Shown one piece after another: positions 9,701 through 63,860 of a stretch of DNA of 64,000 nucleotides. Each line of letters opens with the position of its first letter. The stretch's first letter is position 1. Below the pieces are notes generated by a model. It worked only from the letters and a program-made list of their open reading frames with translations, made no database searches and was not told the origin of the DNA. The position numbers were made by a program, and so were the translations under genes. This DNA comes from Branchiostoma floridae (lineage: Eukaryota > Chordata > Leptocardii > Amphioxiformes > Branchiostomatidae): assembly GCF_000003815.2 (NCBI RefSeq), contig NC_049995.1, positions 13,354,062-13,418,061 on the forward strand, given 5' to 3'.

Positions 9701-12700
9701 TTTCGTGCACGGGGTTGGGAGTGGCGGTTACTATCAACTCGGGGGAATCTAAGGGGACAGAATTCTCTATTTTAGGACCGCCATTTAATGTGGGTGAAAT
9801 CATGGTCCAACATTTCAAAGTACCAACATGTAAAGTATAAAACAGAACATGCAATCATGAACTGTGATGAGAAGTATTCAACCAACAAAAACTGCCTCAG
9901 GACATTTGTGGACAGGGACATACACGTATTATAATGTGTATGAGTAGATAATTCCAAACATTGTGTATTGAAGGAAACTAAACAAGCCAGGACAGACAGT
10001 TAATGGATGTACTTATAAGCAGACAATAATGCTAGGCTGTAGGCCATTATGCCATAGATTGATGCACCATGCTTGTCAGCATGAATGTTGTATGGTATGC
10101 AGGACAGACACCTTTGCCTAGTCTTACAGTATTAGTTATGTCCAGTGTACAAGAAAAGAGTCAGAAACTAGGTCATGAAAGTGTCAAGACTTCAACTTCA
10201 GTCATCATCATGATCAATCAAGAAAAATTAAGGCTGAGGTGACAGCTGATGACAAATAACACACCATGATTGTATACAAATGTGCAAATATATATTTGAC
10301 TTCCCATTGACCTTCATGGCAAGAAACAAATTAAAGGAATCTTAGAGGTAACTATCACAGCACGAAAACAACTTTTTAAGCAAAGTTTCAGAGATACGTA
10401 TAAAGCCCTTAAAGGCGGAGAAATATTTCAGCAGATTTTAAGATCTATCAAAGGCATCGGAAACATACATTTGGCATTTACGGAAGATTTCAGCGTTTGT
10501 AAATCTAACTTAATCTGTTGTGTTTCTTTACGTGAATTTTACATGTATTTGAGTATGCCGAAAAGACAACTTAAATGTCTCAAAAATATTTTCTGTCAAA
10601 ACGGACAAATGCCGTTTCTCTAGATCTGTTACAAAATACATGTTAACCGGCTATGTCAAATGTAATAAGCCTTTGTCTGGTGTTAGATAAAACATGGCGT
10701 CATCTGTTTTATAACAGTGGCAAGATTTACAGTCAAAACTGAAAATTATTGCGCTTTCTGGTACAAAATGTTATGTTTATACCTCAGCAAATACAAATAC
10801 AATACAATACAAAGTCAAATACCATAATATTCTGTGTTTTTTAGCAATTCCGAAAGCATTTGACGTATTCAAACTTTCTGTGCGCAAGGTTTAATTCGAA
10901 CAGGGGAGAACCTCTCACGGTTAGCTTATATGCGCTATTTTACGTTATATGAAATGTTGCGTATACCATGGTCAATATTGACCGAAGGATGCCATATATA
11001 TAATTTATTTCGAACCGTCATTTACGCAAAGAAGGGAAGACCTCCCCCGTTAACATATTTGCCAAGACGTATATGAAATGTTGCGTATTTCATTTGAATA
11101 TACGAAATGATTATTCTTTGAATCCGCGCAGTTTAAGCGAACTAGGGGAGACCTCTCCCGTTTAGCTTACTAGTATATGTTGCCAAAACGTATATGAAAT
11201 GTTGCGTTTTTCTTTTCAACATACGACATGTTTAATCTTTGAATCCGCGCAGTTTAAGCGAACTAGGGGAGACATCCCCCGTTTAGCTTATATGCTGCCA
11301 AAACGTATATGAAATGTTGCGTATTTCTGTAAAACATACAACAAGTTTAATCTTTGAATGCTCGCAGTTTAAACGAACTTCGGGAGACCAACCCCATTTA
11401 GCTTATATGTTGTCAAGACGTATATGAAATGTTGCGTATTTCTAAAACATACAACAAGTTTAATCTTTGAATCCGCGCAGTTTAAGCGAACTAGGGGAGA
11501 CCTCCCCCGTTTAGCTTAGATGTTGTTAAGACGTATATGAAATGTTGCGTATTTCTGTAAAACATACAACAAGTTTAATCTTTGAATCTAGGGGAGACCT
11601 CCCCTGTTTAGCTTATATGCTGCCAAAACGTATATGAAATGTTGCGTATTTCTGTTGAACATACGACATGTTTAATCTTTGAATCCGCGCAGTTTAAGCG
11701 AACTAGGGGAGACCTCCCCCGTTTAGCTTATATGTTGCCAAAACGTATTTGAAATGTTGCGTATTTCTGTTGAACATACGACATGTTTAATCTTTGAATC
11801 CGCTCAGTTTAAGCGAACTAGGGGAGACCTCCCCCGTTTAGCTTATATGTTGCCAAAACGTATATGTAATGTTGCGTATTTCTGTAAAACATACGACATG
11901 TTTAATCTTTGAATCCGCGCAGTTTAAGCGAACTAGGGGAGACCTCCCTTGTTTAGTTTATATGTTGCCAAGACGTATATGAAATGTTGCGTATTTCTGT
12001 TGAACATACGACATGTTTAATCTTTAAATCCGCGCAGTTTAAGCGAACTAGGGGAGACCTCCCTCGTTTAGCTTTTATGTTGTCAAGACGTATATGAAAT
12101 GTTGCGTATTTCTGTAAAACATGCAACAAGTTTAATCTTTGAATCCGCGCAGTTTAAGCGAACTAGGGGAGACCTCCCCCGTTTAGCTTATATGTTGCCA
12201 AAACGTATATGTAATGTTGCGTATTTCTGTAAAACATACGACATGTTTAATCTTTGAATCCGCGCAGTTTAAGCGAACTAGGGGAGACCTCCCTTGTTTA
12301 GTTTATATGTTGCCAAGACGTATATGAAATGTTGCGTATTTCTGTTGAACATACGACATGTTTAATCTTTAAATCCGCGCAGTTTAAGCGAACTAGGGGA
12401 GACCTCCCTCGTTTAGCTTTTATGTTGTCAAGACGTATATGAAATGTTGCGTATTTCTGTAAAACATGCAACAAGTTTAATCTTTGAATCCGCGCAGTTT
12501 AAGCGAACTAGGGGAGACCTCCCCCGTTTAGCTTATATGTTGCCAAAACGTATATGTAATGTTGCGTATTTCTGTAAAACATACGACATGTTTAATCTTT
12601 GAATCCGCGCAGTTTAAGCGAACTAGGGGAGACCTCCCTTGTTTAGTTTATATGTTGCCAAGACGTATATGAAATGTTGCGTATTTCTGTTGAACATACG

Positions 12701-15700
12701 ACATGTTTAATCTTTAAATCCGCGCAGTTTAAGCGAACTAGAGGAGACCTCCCTCGTTTAGCTTTTGTGTTGTCAAGACGTATATGAAATGTTGCGTATT
12801 TCTGTAAAACATACAACAAGTTTAATCTTTGAATCCGCGCAGTTTAAGCGAACTAGGGGAGACCTCCCCCGTTTAGCTTATATGTTGCCAAAACGTATAT
12901 GTAATGTTGCGTATTTCTGTAAAACATACGACATGTTTAATCTTTGAATCCGCGCAGTTTAAGCGAACTAGGGGAGACCTCCCCCGTTTAGCTTATATGT
13001 TGCCAAGACGTATATGAAATGTTGCGTATTTCTGTTGAACATACGACATGTTTAATTTTTGAATCCGCGTAGCTTAAGCAAACTTGGGGGCACTACCCCC
13101 GTTTTATCTATTAGCTAATACCGTCTCAAAGGTTATATGAAACGTTGCCTTTTTCTGCTGAACATACGGCATGTTTGAAGCGCAGTTTCTGCGAACAGGA
13201 GGAGACCCTTTCCTTTTTTTTTATACCGCATATATGTTCTGAAATTCCAGGGTCTAAATTAGGGTGAGGCCGCCTGTTTTCTTTGTGGCAAGTTGACACT
13301 CGAGCTAAGAGACGGTAGAAATCTCGACTACTGCTATGAATATCTCCGCGACTCAACCTCTGCTTGAAGAATAAGGATGTAGTAGGTATAGCGTTTTGTG
13401 CAGTGAGTTGTGTTTTCTCTATAAAACGGCAAGCAGTTCTTACGACAGGTAAATGTACGAAATATGTTTATTTCTTTATCTACAAGCAAGCGTCGAGAAA
13501 GAACAGTTTGTGCACACAGGCGGTGTCTTCTCGTGTTGCTCGTGTTTGTTTGGGTTAATTATGGTGATATGCGTGGGCAGGCAAGATGTAAATTTATTCA
13601 GCGTTATTTCGTACTCGCCATGGGGCGCACACCTCCGTCCGTCCAAGGAGGTTGAACTTCCTTGGTCCGTCTGTGGCACATCTGTGTCATGTGATAGGAT
13701 GTATCCAATGGCAGAAAAGAGTGGGAGGTTCAAATTTACGGGCCATACGTACGACAAGGAGCGGTTATTTTCCAGGCGTTCATTTTTGAAGAGAAGTATT
13801 GAAGAAAGTTTGGGCCTGTTGTAGCCCGCAAGTTGTGGCCGCGACGCCGCTTTTACCGCCTAGGACACCCGGTGACGGAATTTGACTCAAAGATACGAGG
13901 TGGCTATCATTCTGTACAAGCTGTTGTTGTTGGAAATCGACACAGAATGGAAATCACGGCCCTTGTACCATCCGGATTAATAGAAGCCGAGACCGCAAGC
14001 TGAACATGTTTCGCGTTCACAGAATCCAGGACCATCCAACAGCACGAGTCATATCGGCCACTACTCTAGATCTTACCGGATTCTTATTCCTGTGGTGACC
14101 AGATAGAACTGTACATGTGTGCTCTTTTTAACTTACGCCGAAACTCTTCACCCGACACTGGAAATGGGACTGTGGACTGCTGCACGGAATTGCGCAACCG
14201 TTGTGATTGTTTCAACTGCCGACTACATCAGAATGAAAGGCCACAAATACCTAGTAGGCTGTAGTTTTTTTTTTACTTTTCCATGTAATATTTTCTCGTA
14301 ATTCAATAAAATTTCAAAGTTTCATCCATTGTATTTTCTTGCTTTGAAATGTGCTAATGATTATTCTCCTAAAATGGCACTTATCCACACCTTATAATCA
14401 ACTTAATGCACACGTATATGAGACGTACAGAGGGAACTTTAAACATGTCTTAAGGGTGTTTTAGTACGTATTTATGACAACTTTAAGCTGCTAAAAAGAA
14501 AAATATAGACACATTAAATCCTCTTAATTCACACGTATATGAGACGTAAATAGGCTTTAGATCAAATAAACGTGAAGTTTAAACATGTCTTAAGGGCGTT
14601 TTAATAGATATTTATGGCGAATTTAAGCTACTGAAAAGGCATCTAAACACGTTATAATCCACTTAATTCACACGTATATGAGACGTAAATAGGCTTTAGA
14701 TCAAATAAACGTGAAGTTTAAACATGTCTTAAGGGCGTTTTAATAAGTATTTATGGCAAATTTAAGCTGCTGAAAAGGAACCTAAACACACATTATAATC
14801 CACTTAATGTACACGTATATGAGACGTAAACAGGCTTTAGATCAAATAAACGTGAAGTTTAAACAAGTCTTAAGGGCGTTATAATAGGTATTTATGGCAA
14901 ATTTAAGCTGCTGAAAAGGCACCTAAACACACGTTATAATCCACTTAATGCACACGTATATGAGACGTAAATAGGCTTTAGATCAAATATACGTGAAGTT
15001 TAAACATGTCTTAAGGGCGTTTTAATAGATATTTATGGCAACTTTAAACTGCTGAAAAGGCACCTAAACACACGTTATAATCCTCTTAATGGACACGTAT
15101 ATGAGACGTAAAGAGGCTTTAGATCAAATAAACGTGAAGTTTAAACATGTCTTAAGGGCGTTTTAATAAGTATTTATGGCAACTTTAAGCTGTTGAAAAG
15201 GCACTAAAACACATGTTATAATCCACTTAATGCAATTGTATATGAGACGTAAAGAGGCTTTAAATCAAATAAACGTGAACTTTAAACAAGTTTTAAGGGG
15301 GTTTTAAAAATCATTTACGACATCTTTAAGCTGCTGAAAGACAACGGGAAAACCGGAAAATAAGGACTAACACGGACCTACAGAAAGACCACTTAAAGGC
15401 AATATTTACGTACTCGTATAAGTGGTGTATAGATCCGTAAAGGAGGAAAATACGTCAACATTACGCATGGTTTCAGCATCCTTAAATACCGTTTTTCGTG
15501 CCGTGTATTAACATTGTGAACAATTTGTCAGAAGCTGATGACTCAGTTATTCACATAAAGCAGAACATCCATACTGTTCAGTCTTTTAGTAGACTGTCAA
15601 GAAGTATAGTTTCAGGAGCATTTGTACAGCGCGAAGACACATGCGGCAGGCTTGTCTGTGTGCGGTAAACTGTCAAAGCTTACAATTGATAATGATCTCC

Positions 15701-18700
15701 ATTGATACAGTTTTAGTGTCAGTTGTGCCCTTTTGATTGTTGAAAGCTTCACAGATGTAGGTTCCGGCATCGCTGCGGTTTGCTTGAGTGAAGGTCAAGA
15801 CCTCATTGTTCCATTGGTTTGAACTTTTTTGTTTGGTCCACTTGTTACCAGCAATAGGATATGCAACGGCTGAACACCTGACGCTTACAGAGTCTCCCTC
15901 TGACACGGTCACAGGTGAGGTTTGGTTCAGTGTTGGTGTGTCCAGATCTGAGCAGGTTTGTAGATACTGTTGATGTTATTATCATTTGATTATGACATTT
16001 ACCTTAGAATTTCAAATTTAAAGCTTACAATTTGACTCAAACTAAGACTGATGTTCGTCAAATAACTTACACAGCACATCCACAATGCTTGTAGCTGAGT
16101 CAGATTGTCCTATGCCGTTGTCAGCTGTACAGGTATATGTGCCTGCATCATTTCTGTGGAGACTTGTGATCTGTGTGGTATTGTTGTTGGCAATGCCTGC
16201 TGGGATTGGTCCTGGGGCCTTGCTCCATGTAAAGGTTGGATCAGGGTTCCCGTCAGCCGTACATGTAAGAGTGAGGGGGTCTCCTTCTTTCTCTACTGCC
16301 GTACTCGGTGTGACAGTGGTTCCTGACGGTTCATCTATTTATACAAGGTCCAACTTGTGAACGGTCTGGATTATTAATATAGTCTAGACACGAACAGCAC
16401 AGATTAAAAGGACTTCTTTGTGTGGCTGAAAAAAAAACCTTCAATCCATCAAAAATGCAGCGAACAGTAACTGCACTGTTTTTTTTAAATTACAAAAATA
16501 AAATATATTTAAATAGATTTGAAACAAACAGCTTAACTCACAGTTCACAGTTACAGTAAATCACTTTGGCAGCCAAGCTTATAATGTTACAGTCACTGTG
16601 ACAGACCCAACAAAATTAAGTGAACAGTAACAGTAACTGCATTTTCTCCGACATTACACAAACTCTCTAAAGTTGAAAGCACGGGTACTCACAATTCACC
16701 ACCAGTCCCACAGGACCACTCTCCTGTGACGTCCCAACCACGTTAGTAGCCGTGCACCTGTACTGTCCAGCCTCACCACGCTGTACATTGTTGATGGTCA
16801 GGGTCCCTCTACTGTGGGAGACAGACTGTCCATCTCGTGTCCAGGTGTAGGAGGTAGGAGGTGGGACGGACTCGTCAGAGCTGCACGTCAGGGTCACTGT
16901 CTGGTCTTCTACTACTGGGTTTGGGGTGATGTCAACAGTTGGCTGGGAGGGCTTGTCTGTGGAACATATGTCATGTATATCAAGTAAAAATTACGTTAAG
17001 GCCATAGAAAATAACTTTTATGGATGGCATCCCCTTAAGACCCCAAATGTAATGCAAAATTGCAAAATAATATTAGGAAAAAAGCAAAATATGTAGTTGG
17101 CATATTACACTAAGTCTTTCAGTTGGCCACTACACTAAAGAACTGAATTATAACTGTTGCATTTCCTTTTTTTTGCAGTATTTATTGTTCATGTGTATCA
17201 GTAATTTTAGTGTGATTTTTAAACTCTTTCTGTCATGTCCGTTATGTGATATTGTATTGATGTGCAATGAATTTCATGTGTTGGACCGCAGGACAAATAA
17301 CTAAGAGAACTTTCAAGCTGTTGATGTGTCTCAATTATAAAGCAGCATTAATGGAGAAGCCAAGAAATGATGTACAGTCATGTAGAAAGCTTAACAATCT
17401 CCATTAGCATTTTAATGCACAATACAAAGCGTACTCACAATTCACCACCAGTCCCACAGCACCACTCTCCTGTGACGTCCCCACCACGTTAGTAGCCGTG
17501 CACCTGTACTGTCCAGCCTCACCACGCTGTACATTGGTGAAGGTCAGAGTTCCTCCACTGTGGGAGACAGACTGTCCATCTCGTGTCCAGGAGTAGGAGG
17601 CTGGAGGTGGGACGGAGTCGTCAGAGCTGCACGTCAGGGTCACTGTCTGGTCTTCTACTACTGGGTTTGGGGTGATCTCAACAGTTGGCTGGGAGGGCTT
17701 GTCTGTGGAACACATGCAGAGGTCGAACAATTAGTTCTGAGAACAGATAGAATACAGTATTACAAATTTGTCGTAAACGTCTATGGTCGTAAACTGAACC
17801 AACTTACTTGAATCCAATGTTTTTGTCAAACATTGCTCCCTGAAAAGTGAAAAGCTACAGGAATTGTACGTATGTGCTAGTGAATACACTGAAAAGCTCG
17901 GATTTCCCGACAAATAAATGTTCATGTAAATTTACTGTGCACATGCTGATCAAATTCACAAAACGATGTAATACTGACTGATGAAATGCGGTACACTTAC
18001 ACTGCACAGTGACGACAGTGTTTGCTGTCCCAGTTCCAGCGCTGCCATCATGGAATGTGTTTGTTGCTGTACACACATACGTGCCAGCTGCTGCCTGCTG
18101 GATGTTTGAGATGGACAGCTGTGCTGTAGAGGAGACAGCTGTGCTGCTGCCCTGTTTCTTCCACTCCACACTGGCAGCAGGTCTGGCAGACACCGTGCAC
18201 TCCACAGTCAGGGTCTCATCTTCAGTCACGGTTTCCTCACTTGGAGCCGATACCTCAGGGGCATCTGGGTAGAAAAAAAACGTAAAAAATACGTCGGCCT
18301 TAAGGTTATGTTGTATGCCATTGGTTACGGTTTAGAAAGTAAATATGCTACATAGAAAAGAATGATCCTGCTTTTATGAAATGATATATACTGAATTATT
18401 GTTAAGATGAATCCAGTTATTTGTATGTCTTGTAATTGTATACTACAAAGTTGCATAAAATTCCAAAACAATTCAAAAGCATTTACCATTCACTTAGTAA
18501 ACATGCATATTTATATCATCCTTTGTCGTATATTCCGTGTATTGTATTAGATTTCGTCCATGTACATCGTACAATGACCTGGAACTTTCTAATAAAAGTT
18601 AGTAAAAACAGTATGACAGTTGAATGTCTTTACAATGTTTGCTGCGACAATATGCATGAGATTGTCTGTTCTGAATCACAGATGAAGAGGTCTCTTGACT

Positions 18701-35940: not shown

Positions 35941-36570
35941 CAGGGGCCTAAGCATTTGCACGAACCCTATGAAATTCGTACGGATATTATGTGATACACA
36001 TGAATCACTATGCGAAAACGCACAAATATTATGAAATTCGCACGAATCACTATGCAAAAACGCACGAATATTATGAAATTCGCACGAATCACTATGTGAT
36101 TCACACGAACCTTATGAGATTTGCCCAAACCTTATGCAAAATTGCGCAACCACTGCCGGGGTCACATGACAGACGGAGCGGGATTTTCAAGATGGCGCCA
36201 TCGATCGGCGGCGACGGAAAATACGATGTAACACGCCGAAATGAAGCAAAACAGTAGCTTACGGGCTATCAAATACATCTTTGCGACGGTAAATGTCCAT
36301 TCCATGCCTTGAAATATAAATATCACGGGTAGAAACGCTCAAAATTATGCCTCCTCTCGGTCGCCGTTTTTGCATAAGGATCGTGCAAATCTCATAAGGT
36401 TCATGTGAATCACATAGTGATTCGTGCGAATTTCATAATATTCGTGCGTTTTTGCATAGTGATTCGTGCAAATTTCATAATATTCGTGCATTTTCGCATA
36501 TAAAATTCGTGCGTATGCATAATATTCGTACAAATTTCATAGGGTTCGTGCAAATGCTTAGGCACCCCTG
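35941..36570. mobile_element. Foldback element with about 200-bp arms
   Basis: The ends are CAGGGG(T)GCCTAAGC. Each arm contains several ATTATGAAATTCGCACGAA and CACTATGCAAAAACGCACG units, so the arms are both inverted with respect to each other and internally repetitive. The unique centre (about 36160-36350) contains GGTCACATGAC and CAAGATGGCGCC, a promoter-like composition. CAGGGG termini are seen in hAT elements, but I see no clear 8-bp target duplication. Confidence 0.8.
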
Positions 36571-57105: not shown

Positions 57106-58176
57106 ATGAACCAACAGAAACCACCGTCACACCGAGTACGGCAGAAGAGAAAGAAGGAGACCCTCTCACTCTCACATGTACGGCTGACGGGAAACCTGAA
57201 CCAACCTTTACATGGAGCAAGGACCCAGGAACTATCCCAGCAGGCATTGCCAACAACAACGCTATACAGATCACAAGTCTCCACAGAAATGATGCAGGCA
57301 CATACACCTGTACAGCTGACAACGGCATAGGACAATCTGACTCAGCTACAAGCACTGTGGATGTGCTGTGTGAGTTGTAGAAAATATTATTGGTTTGACT
57401 AACATCAATCTTGATTTGAGTCAAATTTTAAGCTAAAAGTTTGAATTTTAAGGTAAATGCTAGTCAATAATAATAACGTCAACGGTATCTACAAACCTGT
57501 TCAGATCTGGACACACCAACCCTGAACCAAACCTCACCAGTGACCTTGTTAGAAGGAGATTCTGTCAGCATCATGTGCTCAGCTGTTGCCAACCCTACTG
57601 CTGGCTACAAGTGGACCAAACGGAACAGTTCATACCAATGGAACAATGATGCCTTGACCTTCTCTCAAGCAAACCGCAGCAATGCTGGAACCTACAACTG
57701 TGAAGCCTCCAACATTCAAAAGGGCACAACTGAGACTAAAACTGTAACACTGGAGATCATCGTCAATTGTAAGCTTTGACAGTTTACTGCACACAGACAA
57801 GCATGCCGTATGTGTCTTCACGATTCACAAACACTCACGAAACTATACTTCTTGACAGCCACTGAAAGACTGTCCTGCTTTATAATTTTAATAAAAGTCA
57901 TCAGCTGCTCCTCAGATGAATTGTCCACAACATCAATAGTTGCCTCTTAAGAGTCTTCTTGTTTCTTGCCAGAAATGGCAAAGGAAATTTAAGTCCTGCC
58001 ATACACATATGTTTGTACAGACATATATATGATGTGTCATCAGCTGTCACCTCAGCCTTCCTCTCTATTAACTGAAGTTGATTGGTTGTCATTTTAAATG
58101 GTCTTGAAACTTTCATAAATGTTTCTGACTTTTTTTCTTGTACACTGGAGATAACAGTACTGCTTGGCTAGGCAAA

Positions 58177-62825: not shown

Positions 62826-63573
62826 AGAGGGTCTGCATGGGGGGGTCTTGGTAACGCTTAACGGTGAATTCAGGAGGCCCGGTAACGCTTAACGGTAAAT
62901 TCAGGAGGCCCGGTAACGCTTAACGGTAAATTCAGAATGAGTTACAAAGCATAACAGTAACATTGACGTGCATTCCTATTCATACAACGCTAGAGTACTA
63001 GTAGTTATATCAATGGGTGAAAATACATTGTGAGAAGCAAAAGGTGCCGAAGGCGCGACGCATTCCAGGGTGGTCCGGGGGATGCTCCCCCGGAAAAAAA
63101 AAATTAAAATCAAGACCCTCTTAAATGCTATTTCCTGCATTTTCGGCAAATTTTGCCGACCGACTAAGCTAGGTCGATTTTGACATTTTGCCCGAAACTA
63201 AGCTATGTTTGACACTGAAATCTGTATGAGTGATAAAGTTTTGAGGTCGACGCTTCCGCAACAAGGCCGGGAGGCTCGGAGAAATTTTGAAATCTGGACC
63301 CTTTGAAACGCCATTTCTTGCATTTTCAGGGGTTCTATCTGACATTTGACTTCGTGTGTATAGTATAACGGGTTACGAACAATTTCTTGGTAACGCTTAA
63401 CGGTGAATATTCAGGATAACAAATAACGATTAACGTTGAATTAAAACGACCAATAACGCTTCACGAAGAATATACCGATAACGATTCACGTTGAATTAGA
63501 GCGGGTCGGTAACGATTAACGGTGAATTAAAATGGCTCGTAACGCTTAACGGAAAAAGGCATGCAGACCCTCT
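62826..63573. mobile_element. TIR element with about 30-bp internal repeats
   Basis: The termini are AGAGGGTCTGCATG and its exact inverse at 63560-63573, with CTTT on both outer sides. Inside are about nine direct copies of GGTAACGCTTAACGGTGAATT, clustered at 62850-62945 and 63388-63555, around a central region with CCGGGGGATGCTCCCCCGG. No transposase was seen, so it is probably non-autonomous. Confidence 0.7.
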
Positions 63574-63689
63574 CTTTAGACATGCGTTCAGAGTATTTCG
63601 GGGCACCCGCGGTGCAGGATACCATTGCGGTGCGTGCGTGACCCACAGTGACCGCTTGCTCGCAAATCAAAAATGGCGGGAGAATTCCT

Positions 63690-63860
63690 TATTTTCGTCA
63701 GGCGTTCAGGCCGTTTTCTGGATATCCAGGAAGCGTCCTCCTGTTCAAGCCGTTTCCTGGATATCCAGGATTCGTCCTGAGCCTGTTCAAGCCGTTTCTG
63801 GATATCCAGGAAGCGTCCTCCTGTTCAAGCCGTTTCCTGGATATCCAGGATGTGGACCAG
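63690..63860. repeat. Minisatellite, TTCCTGGATATCCAGGA units
   Basis: Four units contain GTTCAAGCCGTTTCCTGGAT and the palindromic core CTGGATATCCAG, with alternating spacers (AAGCGTCCTCCT and TTCGTCCTGAGCCT). A single related unit lies near 62528. Confidence 0.85.

Follow-up and report, generated by a model that had tools for sequence, protein, structure and literature searches.

A mobile element carrying two satellite arrays

The 64,000-nucleotide stretch of the Branchiostoma floridae genome analyzed in this study (contig NC_049995.1, positions 13,354,062 to 13,418,061; hereafter the window) contains a mobile element at 10356-15505, which belongs to a young and abundant family of mobile DNA. 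In this family, two tandem arrays of different repeat units travel ready-made within the element. The family probably consists of non-autonomous cut-and-paste DNA transposons, most likely of the CACTA/EnSpm type. An initial annotation of the window had proposed that a mobile unit carries entire arrays as a package. The boundaries shared among copies, the pairing of their ends, the collinear order of their repeat units and the correlation of element length with array length bear out this proposal and indicate that the arrays are multiplied by transposition.

The element begins with the 5' terminal inverted repeat CACAGCACGAAAA (10356-10368, plus strand) and ends with its 3' counterpart CACGGCACGAAAA (15493-15505, minus strand), and it is flanked by a TAT target-site duplication at 10353-10355 (left copy) and 15506-15508 (right copy). 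These ends and the duplication lie where the initial annotation had placed them. With at most one mismatch, the motif CACNGCACGAAAA has only two matches in the window, which are the two ends of the element, against a chance expectation of 0.24; two matches were reached in 3 of 100 shuffles. The inverted match between the ends spans 25 nucleotides with 76% complementarity. Along the plus strand, the interior comprises a 5' single-copy subterminal region (10356-10870; start base identical in all 20 copies fetched from the genome, inner limit set by eye), array A with 115-bp units (10870-13200; Tandem Repeats Finder [TRF] core 11033-13104, with degenerate edges placed by eye), a single-copy core (13230-14330), array B with 141-bp units (14434-15339, by TRF) and a 3' single-copy subterminal region (15340-15505), which is nearly invariant among the compared copies, these having been chosen partly for that property. 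By the TRF limits the arrays occupy 58% of the element, in line with the earlier estimate of about 60%; of the two periods first given, 115 bp stands, while the second is 141 bp rather than 140 bp.

A paralogous segment elsewhere in the window (57920-57960, minus strand) has the corresponding empty site with a single TAT, seen as ATA at 57937-57939 on the plus strand. When the flanks of the element are joined with one TAT removed, they align to this inverted segment across the insertion point at approximately 57937-57939 without a gap at the junction, which confirms the empty site suggested earlier. By eye, immunoglobulin-domain-like exons in opposite orientations were also seen at 15673-15975 and 57600-57770; the element adjoins one of them and the empty site adjoins the other.

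Copies across the genome

Genome searches covered a 513-Mb assembly of 431 contigs, with 19 chromosome-scale contigs represented in the match lists. The first 205 bp of the element returned 215 candidates and the last 190 bp returned 153; for each query 40 were scored, and all 40 matched at full length at 99-100%. As a pattern, the 5' end had 140 genome matches, variant ends among them, compared to 5 for the reversed pattern, and the 3' end, allowing at most one mismatch, had 109 compared to none. Twenty full copies (the window element and 19 siblings) were fetched by pairing top end matches; the quality of the ends, and not the presence of a duplication, guided the choice. One further locus, L014, was not counted as a full-length copy because its similarity to the family is lost 1.1 kb in.

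The boundaries are identical to the base in all 20 fetched copies, and every copy is flanked by a perfect 3-bp duplication, for which the chance is 1 in 64 per copy. The duplicated sequences are TAT, TAT, TTT, CTC, TAA, AGG, TTC, TAA, CAA, TGT, ATA, CTG, TGT, TTA, AAA, TAA, GTT, CAC, AAG and GCC, and the flanks of the copies differ. Together with the empty site, these shared boundaries and duplications establish transposition. The initial annotation had suggested looking for copies with common ends, differing array lengths and 3-bp duplications, and such copies are what the searches with both ends recovered; other loci with the same ends exist, and their boundaries coincide exactly with those of the window element. 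Mean pairwise substitution among the 17 copies with a full core, gaps excluded, amounts to 1.9% for the core; it is 1.4% over the first 300 bp and 2.2% over the following 320 bp, and falls to 0.3% over the last 190 bp, a value that is partly a product of selection because the copies were found by their ends.

End pairing was carried out with the 100 listed of the 140 5' ends and 77 of the 100 listed 3' ends (109 in total), the other 23 being dropped since they lay beyond C15:2.99 Mb, where the 5' list ends, or on later or unplaced contigs. Among the ends listed there are 64 inward-facing pairs, 63 of which enclose 2,471-6,711 bp and one of which encloses 14,864 bp.

Arrays transferred as ordered blocks

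Differences in length between copies come almost wholly from the two arrays. In the 15 gap-free copies (five with runs of N were excluded from this test), element length ranges from 3,686 to 5,150 bp and follows array span closely (r = 0.994, n = 15), with a non-array part of 2,132-2,264 bp in each. Among these 15, the window copy has the longest array A, with the most unit anchors (20), and this array contains an expanded higher-order repeat of three units (345 bp).

Repeat units from the 20 copies, except those of unusual length or containing N, were compared in order to find the closest relative of each. For 175 of the 231 A units the closest relative belongs to another copy, for 32 to the same copy, and for 24 to both equally; the corresponding counts for the 82 B units are 79, 2 and 1. 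The mean offset in relative position between a unit and its closest relative is 0.168 for A (0.331 when shuffled) and 0.069 for B (0.322 when shuffled), in both cases beyond all 500 shuffles. Because the closest units are found in other copies at corresponding positions, the arrays have moved as ordered blocks, and unit order is collinear between copies.

A Pfam scan of nine frames from the element found no family above cut-off, and no open reading frame is common to all 20 copies, which speaks against a protein-coding core. A search of 10300-15560 for RNA families gave a single match, far below the gathering score. As the core has no apparent coding function, the family is taken to be non-autonomous. 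By eye, the motif AATAAA was seen in the core at 14305-14310.

Classification and possible sources of transposase

The window family resembles the CACTA/EnSpm group in its CAC...GTG terminal inverted repeats and its 3-bp duplications of variable sequence in the 20 fetched copies. In CACTA/EnSpm elements, subterminal repeats are bound by the transposase, and autonomous members encode a Transposase_21 (PF02992) protein. In the window family, repeats lie near both ends and would be candidates for such binding. CAC/GTG ends with 3-bp duplications are described for CACTA elements (PMC8978399, PMC12810828). In the mechanism proposed for the family, a transposase supplied by another element would recognize the CACRGCACGAAAA ends and insert the whole unit into varied sequences, creating the 3-bp duplication. 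The tandem arrays, which make up most of both subterminal regions, are copied with the element. Between transpositions, whole units may be gained or lost by unequal exchange or slippage.

Ends of related sequence are found elsewhere in the genome, with 112 matches to CACNGCACGAAAAK (16 for the control) and 59 matches to CACTGCACGAAAAM (17 for the control). A second group of transposons, with ends like CACTGCACGAAAAMCCTMATTTCCAGG, has members mostly of 2-4 kb and two of 7-8 kb, the longest being C286:10801-18765 (7,965 bp) and C13:9165603-9172734 (7,132 bp). A 27-base end taken from C286 had 114 matches with up to three mismatches and none for the control; among the 100 of these that are listed, 33 pairs within 10 kb face inward and none faces outward. 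At the other extreme of size, locus L086 (C12:2138928-2139081) is a 124-bp miniature element with CACTGCACGAAAAG ends and a 3-bp ACA duplication. The genome thus contains other transposon families that share the 13-base end, and the 7-8 kb members are candidate sources of transposase and candidates for autonomous relatives of the window family. Separately, CACTGCACGAAAAT accounts for 18 of the 20 C1 places listed for CACNGCACGAAAAK (C1:29.9-34.1 Mb); these places are often in a single orientation and 1.8-3.8 kb apart, and look more like a cluster of tandem genes or repeats than like the ends of transposons.

Several results weigh against a young CACTA/EnSpm family. Across the genome there are 28 hits to the domain Transposase_21 (PF02992), and in several of them the open frame spans 760-956 amino acids. 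The hit nearest to a family 5' end is 17.3 kb away, among 22 of the hits, on nine contigs, compared to 58 of the 100 listed 5' ends (three of these hits are on C15 beyond the stretch with listed 5' ends), and the nearest to a 3' end is 23.2 kb away among 25 hits compared to the 100 listed 3' ends, the other three being on small contigs with no listed end for comparison. Furthermore, no hit lies within 20 kb of 157 related ends (98 of the 100 listed CACNGCACGAAAAK matches, two family ends having been dropped, and all 59 CACTGCACGAAAAM matches). Partnerless ends make up 36 of the 100 5' ends and 13 of the 77 3' ends among those listed, and may be truncated, diverged, broken by assembly gaps or derived from other families. 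The near identity of the ends is in part a matter of selection, as the 20 copies were chosen among the end matches with the highest scores. A duplication is lacking in two elements whose ends are related, namely the 244-bp locus L085 (TGG/TAG) and the 7,965-bp C286 element (AAG/ATT). Finally, family ends enclose a very long interval in a single case, the 14,864-bp pair (C13:3380291-3395154), which was read in part.

This interval may be a long relative of the family. Four loci, amounting to 3,404 bases, were sampled from it, and two of them (L083 and L084, C13:3388900-3390690) contain a minus-strand open frame of 397 amino acids, which has proline-rich repeats and matches a zinc knuckle weakly, below cut-off. 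A close second copy of this frame on C2 is more than 5 Mb from any listed family end, and the frame is therefore probably part of a nested, unrelated element. However, the L081 stretch of the interval is richer than expected by chance in CGTATA (p 0.002) and GTATATG (p <0.001), with p values that are uncorrected for its choice among four stretches, and C11:1654099, 3.2 kb from a relic of Transposase_21, holds a sequence weakly related to the frame (E 6.6e-4); both observations argue against nesting.

The initial annotation had pointed to mobilization by the CMC/EnSpm group and to a search for a CMC transposase with matching ends. The CAC...GTG ends and the arbitrary 3-bp duplications fit the first suggestion, but none of the 28 Transposase_21 hits is linked to family ends among those compared. 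Because no transposase is linked to the family, the element is plausibly filed as CACTA-like rather than as a proven member.

It is possible, although unlikely, that the transposase moving the element is of CMC type but not classical CACTA, for example that of Chapaev or of a relative that Transposase_21 does not match. Chapaev, itself a CMC member, is likewise characterized by CAC/GTG ends (PMC4079192). The distance of Transposase_21 hits from every set of ends compared is consistent with such a source, as is the fact that the related-end elements of 7,965 and 7,132 bp overlap no Transposase_21 hit. However, one type of Chapaev produces a 4-bp target duplication, and a 4-bp duplication is present in none of the 20 copies. 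Chapaev in general is described with a 3- to 4-bp duplication, and for Chapaev3 the insertion site is TWA with A before it and T after it (PMC4079192). Only 4 of the 20 duplications are TWA, and in none of the copies is the site preceded by A and followed by T, which argues against Chapaev3. Among more distant groups, Helitrons and Helentrons have neither target duplications nor terminal inverted repeats, and the window family, which has both, does not fit this definition. Foldback elements have long terminal inverted repeats that form much of the element; this type was rejected given the short, imperfect inverted match between the ends and the lack of a significant inverted alignment between A and B units (p 0.145).

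Origin of the arrays

The two arrays had been called unrelated. This description holds to the extent that the alignment of their consensus units is not significant in either orientation (p 0.145 inverted, as above, and 0.555 direct), but it has to be qualified for short words common to both units. The units have six 9-mers in common, and at least four are shared in 0.7% of 4000 Markov simulations; this is weak evidence because A is represented by a TRF consensus and B by a single unit. One shared word, ACGTATATGA, is on the same strand in both units and ranks 15 and 10 of 106 windows in conservation in A (for two anchors) and 37 of 131, an average rank, in B. Another, GACATGTTTAA, is on opposite strands and is poorly conserved, ranking 89th among 105 windows in A and 81st among 130 in B. 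The shared words offer a weak hint of predicted transposase binding. Speculatively, and with little confidence, the arrays could represent expanded platforms for transposase loading, with satellites built at both ends by selection for the mobilization of a parasite of a CMC transposase; this transposase, not yet described, would also serve other CACNGCACGAAAA families. The transposase class, like any contribution of the arrays to binding, is inferred.

Units of the arrays outside the window were located with exact words. A 29-base word of A has 789 matches in the genome, and the first 100 of these (C1-C3) form 20 clusters; all 100 matches are correctly oriented and lie inward of a family end by no more than 7 kb (99 via the 5' end and one via the 3' end). 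A 32-base word of B has 179 matches; among the first 100 (C1-C11), 98 have a listed 3' end no more than 2.5 kb away, another is located at 2,742 bp within a copy of 6.7 kb, and the remaining match (C1:1201443), with looser coordinates, is correctly oriented at 4.7 kb from a 5' end. No free array of A or B was found among these first 100 exact-word matches for each repeat. The idea that the element could seed new satellite loci is thus not borne out, as all of the sites examined are beside or inside family ends.

A rather improbable alternative to growth inside the element is that the arrays were host satellites that existed beforehand and were captured by the transposon. A plant CACTA element with captured satellite DNA is on record (PMC8978399), and the lack of a significant overall alignment between A and B units would agree with capture; however, free arrays of either unit are missing from the sampled sites, and the edge units of A degenerate, by eye, into single-copy sequence of the element. 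It is very improbable that the arrays grew independently after each insertion and are local features rather than cargo. The number of units does differ between copies, some copies have local higher-order duplications (L061, L064), and the 32 A units noted above have their closest relative within the same copy, but most units are closer to units at corresponding positions elsewhere than to their neighbors, which strongly contradicts local growth. Segmental duplication of a satellite-bearing locus, which could account for the high similarity of the copies, has almost no probability as a substitute for transposition, being contradicted by the differing flanks, the base-exact ends, the 3-bp duplications in all 20 copies and the empty site.

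How satellites originate and disperse is a long-standing question. With 20 base-exact insertions examined, all of them with these two arrays, and over 100 matching ends in the genome, the birth, loss and homogenization of repeat units could be traced copy by copy, with the insertion event serving as a reference point for the history of the units. At the sampled sites, dispersal by the transposon occurs without free arrays, a useful negative result that counts against the assumption that such elements seed satellites.

Comparison to known systems

Satellites inside mobile DNA are already known from oyster Helentrons, Tetris and plant CACTA elements. The non-autonomous Cg_HINE Helentrons of Crassostrea gigas are likewise dispersed and spread satellite-like arrays, and exceptionally one element contains repeats of two clusters consecutively (PMC7492417). 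Unlike these Helentrons, the window family has terminal inverted repeats and is flanked by 3-bp duplications, and its two unlike arrays are separated by a single-copy core. Jozin, a CACTA-like element of Chenopodium, shares the CACTA-type ends and an internal satellite array, but it is a plant element of 16.5 kb with a Transposase_21 domain and its satellite is near the 3' end, whereas the window family has an array on either side, numerous young copies and no apparent coding capacity (PMC8978399). CNIRT6, a CMC element of Cryptococcus, likewise has CACTG ends and variable 3-bp duplications, but differs in its length of approximately 7.5 kb and its transposase gene, and the passages on it mention no satellite arrays (PMC12810828).

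The foldback element Tetris of Drosophila virilis is, like the window family, apparently non-autonomous and likely mobilized by another element; its tandem repeats are inside the terminal inverted repeats, and its TIR-220 repeats also form longer free satellite-like arrays, in contrast to the sites examined here (PMC4079207). Galileo, of the P-element superfamily, likewise has tandem repeats near its ends, and these contain binding sites for the THAP domain of its transposase (PMC3688188), while binding of this kind is hypothetical for the window family. The terms CMC, EnSpm and Chapaev are absent from the main text of a paper on amphioxus transposable elements (PMC5802833). No description of this family was found among the papers listed in a literature search, although it may be catalogued in Repbase. 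Nor was an earlier description found of the layout, a CACTA-like element in which two unlike arrays flank a single-copy core, together with numerous young copies and direct evidence that the arrays move as blocks.

Other repeats in the window

Two further groups of repeats were observed in the window. At 35954-36541 there are two arrays of 20/42-bp repeats that, by eye, are apparently reverse complements of each other, and at 62850-63850 two 31-bp minisatellites and one 39-bp minisatellite lie close together.

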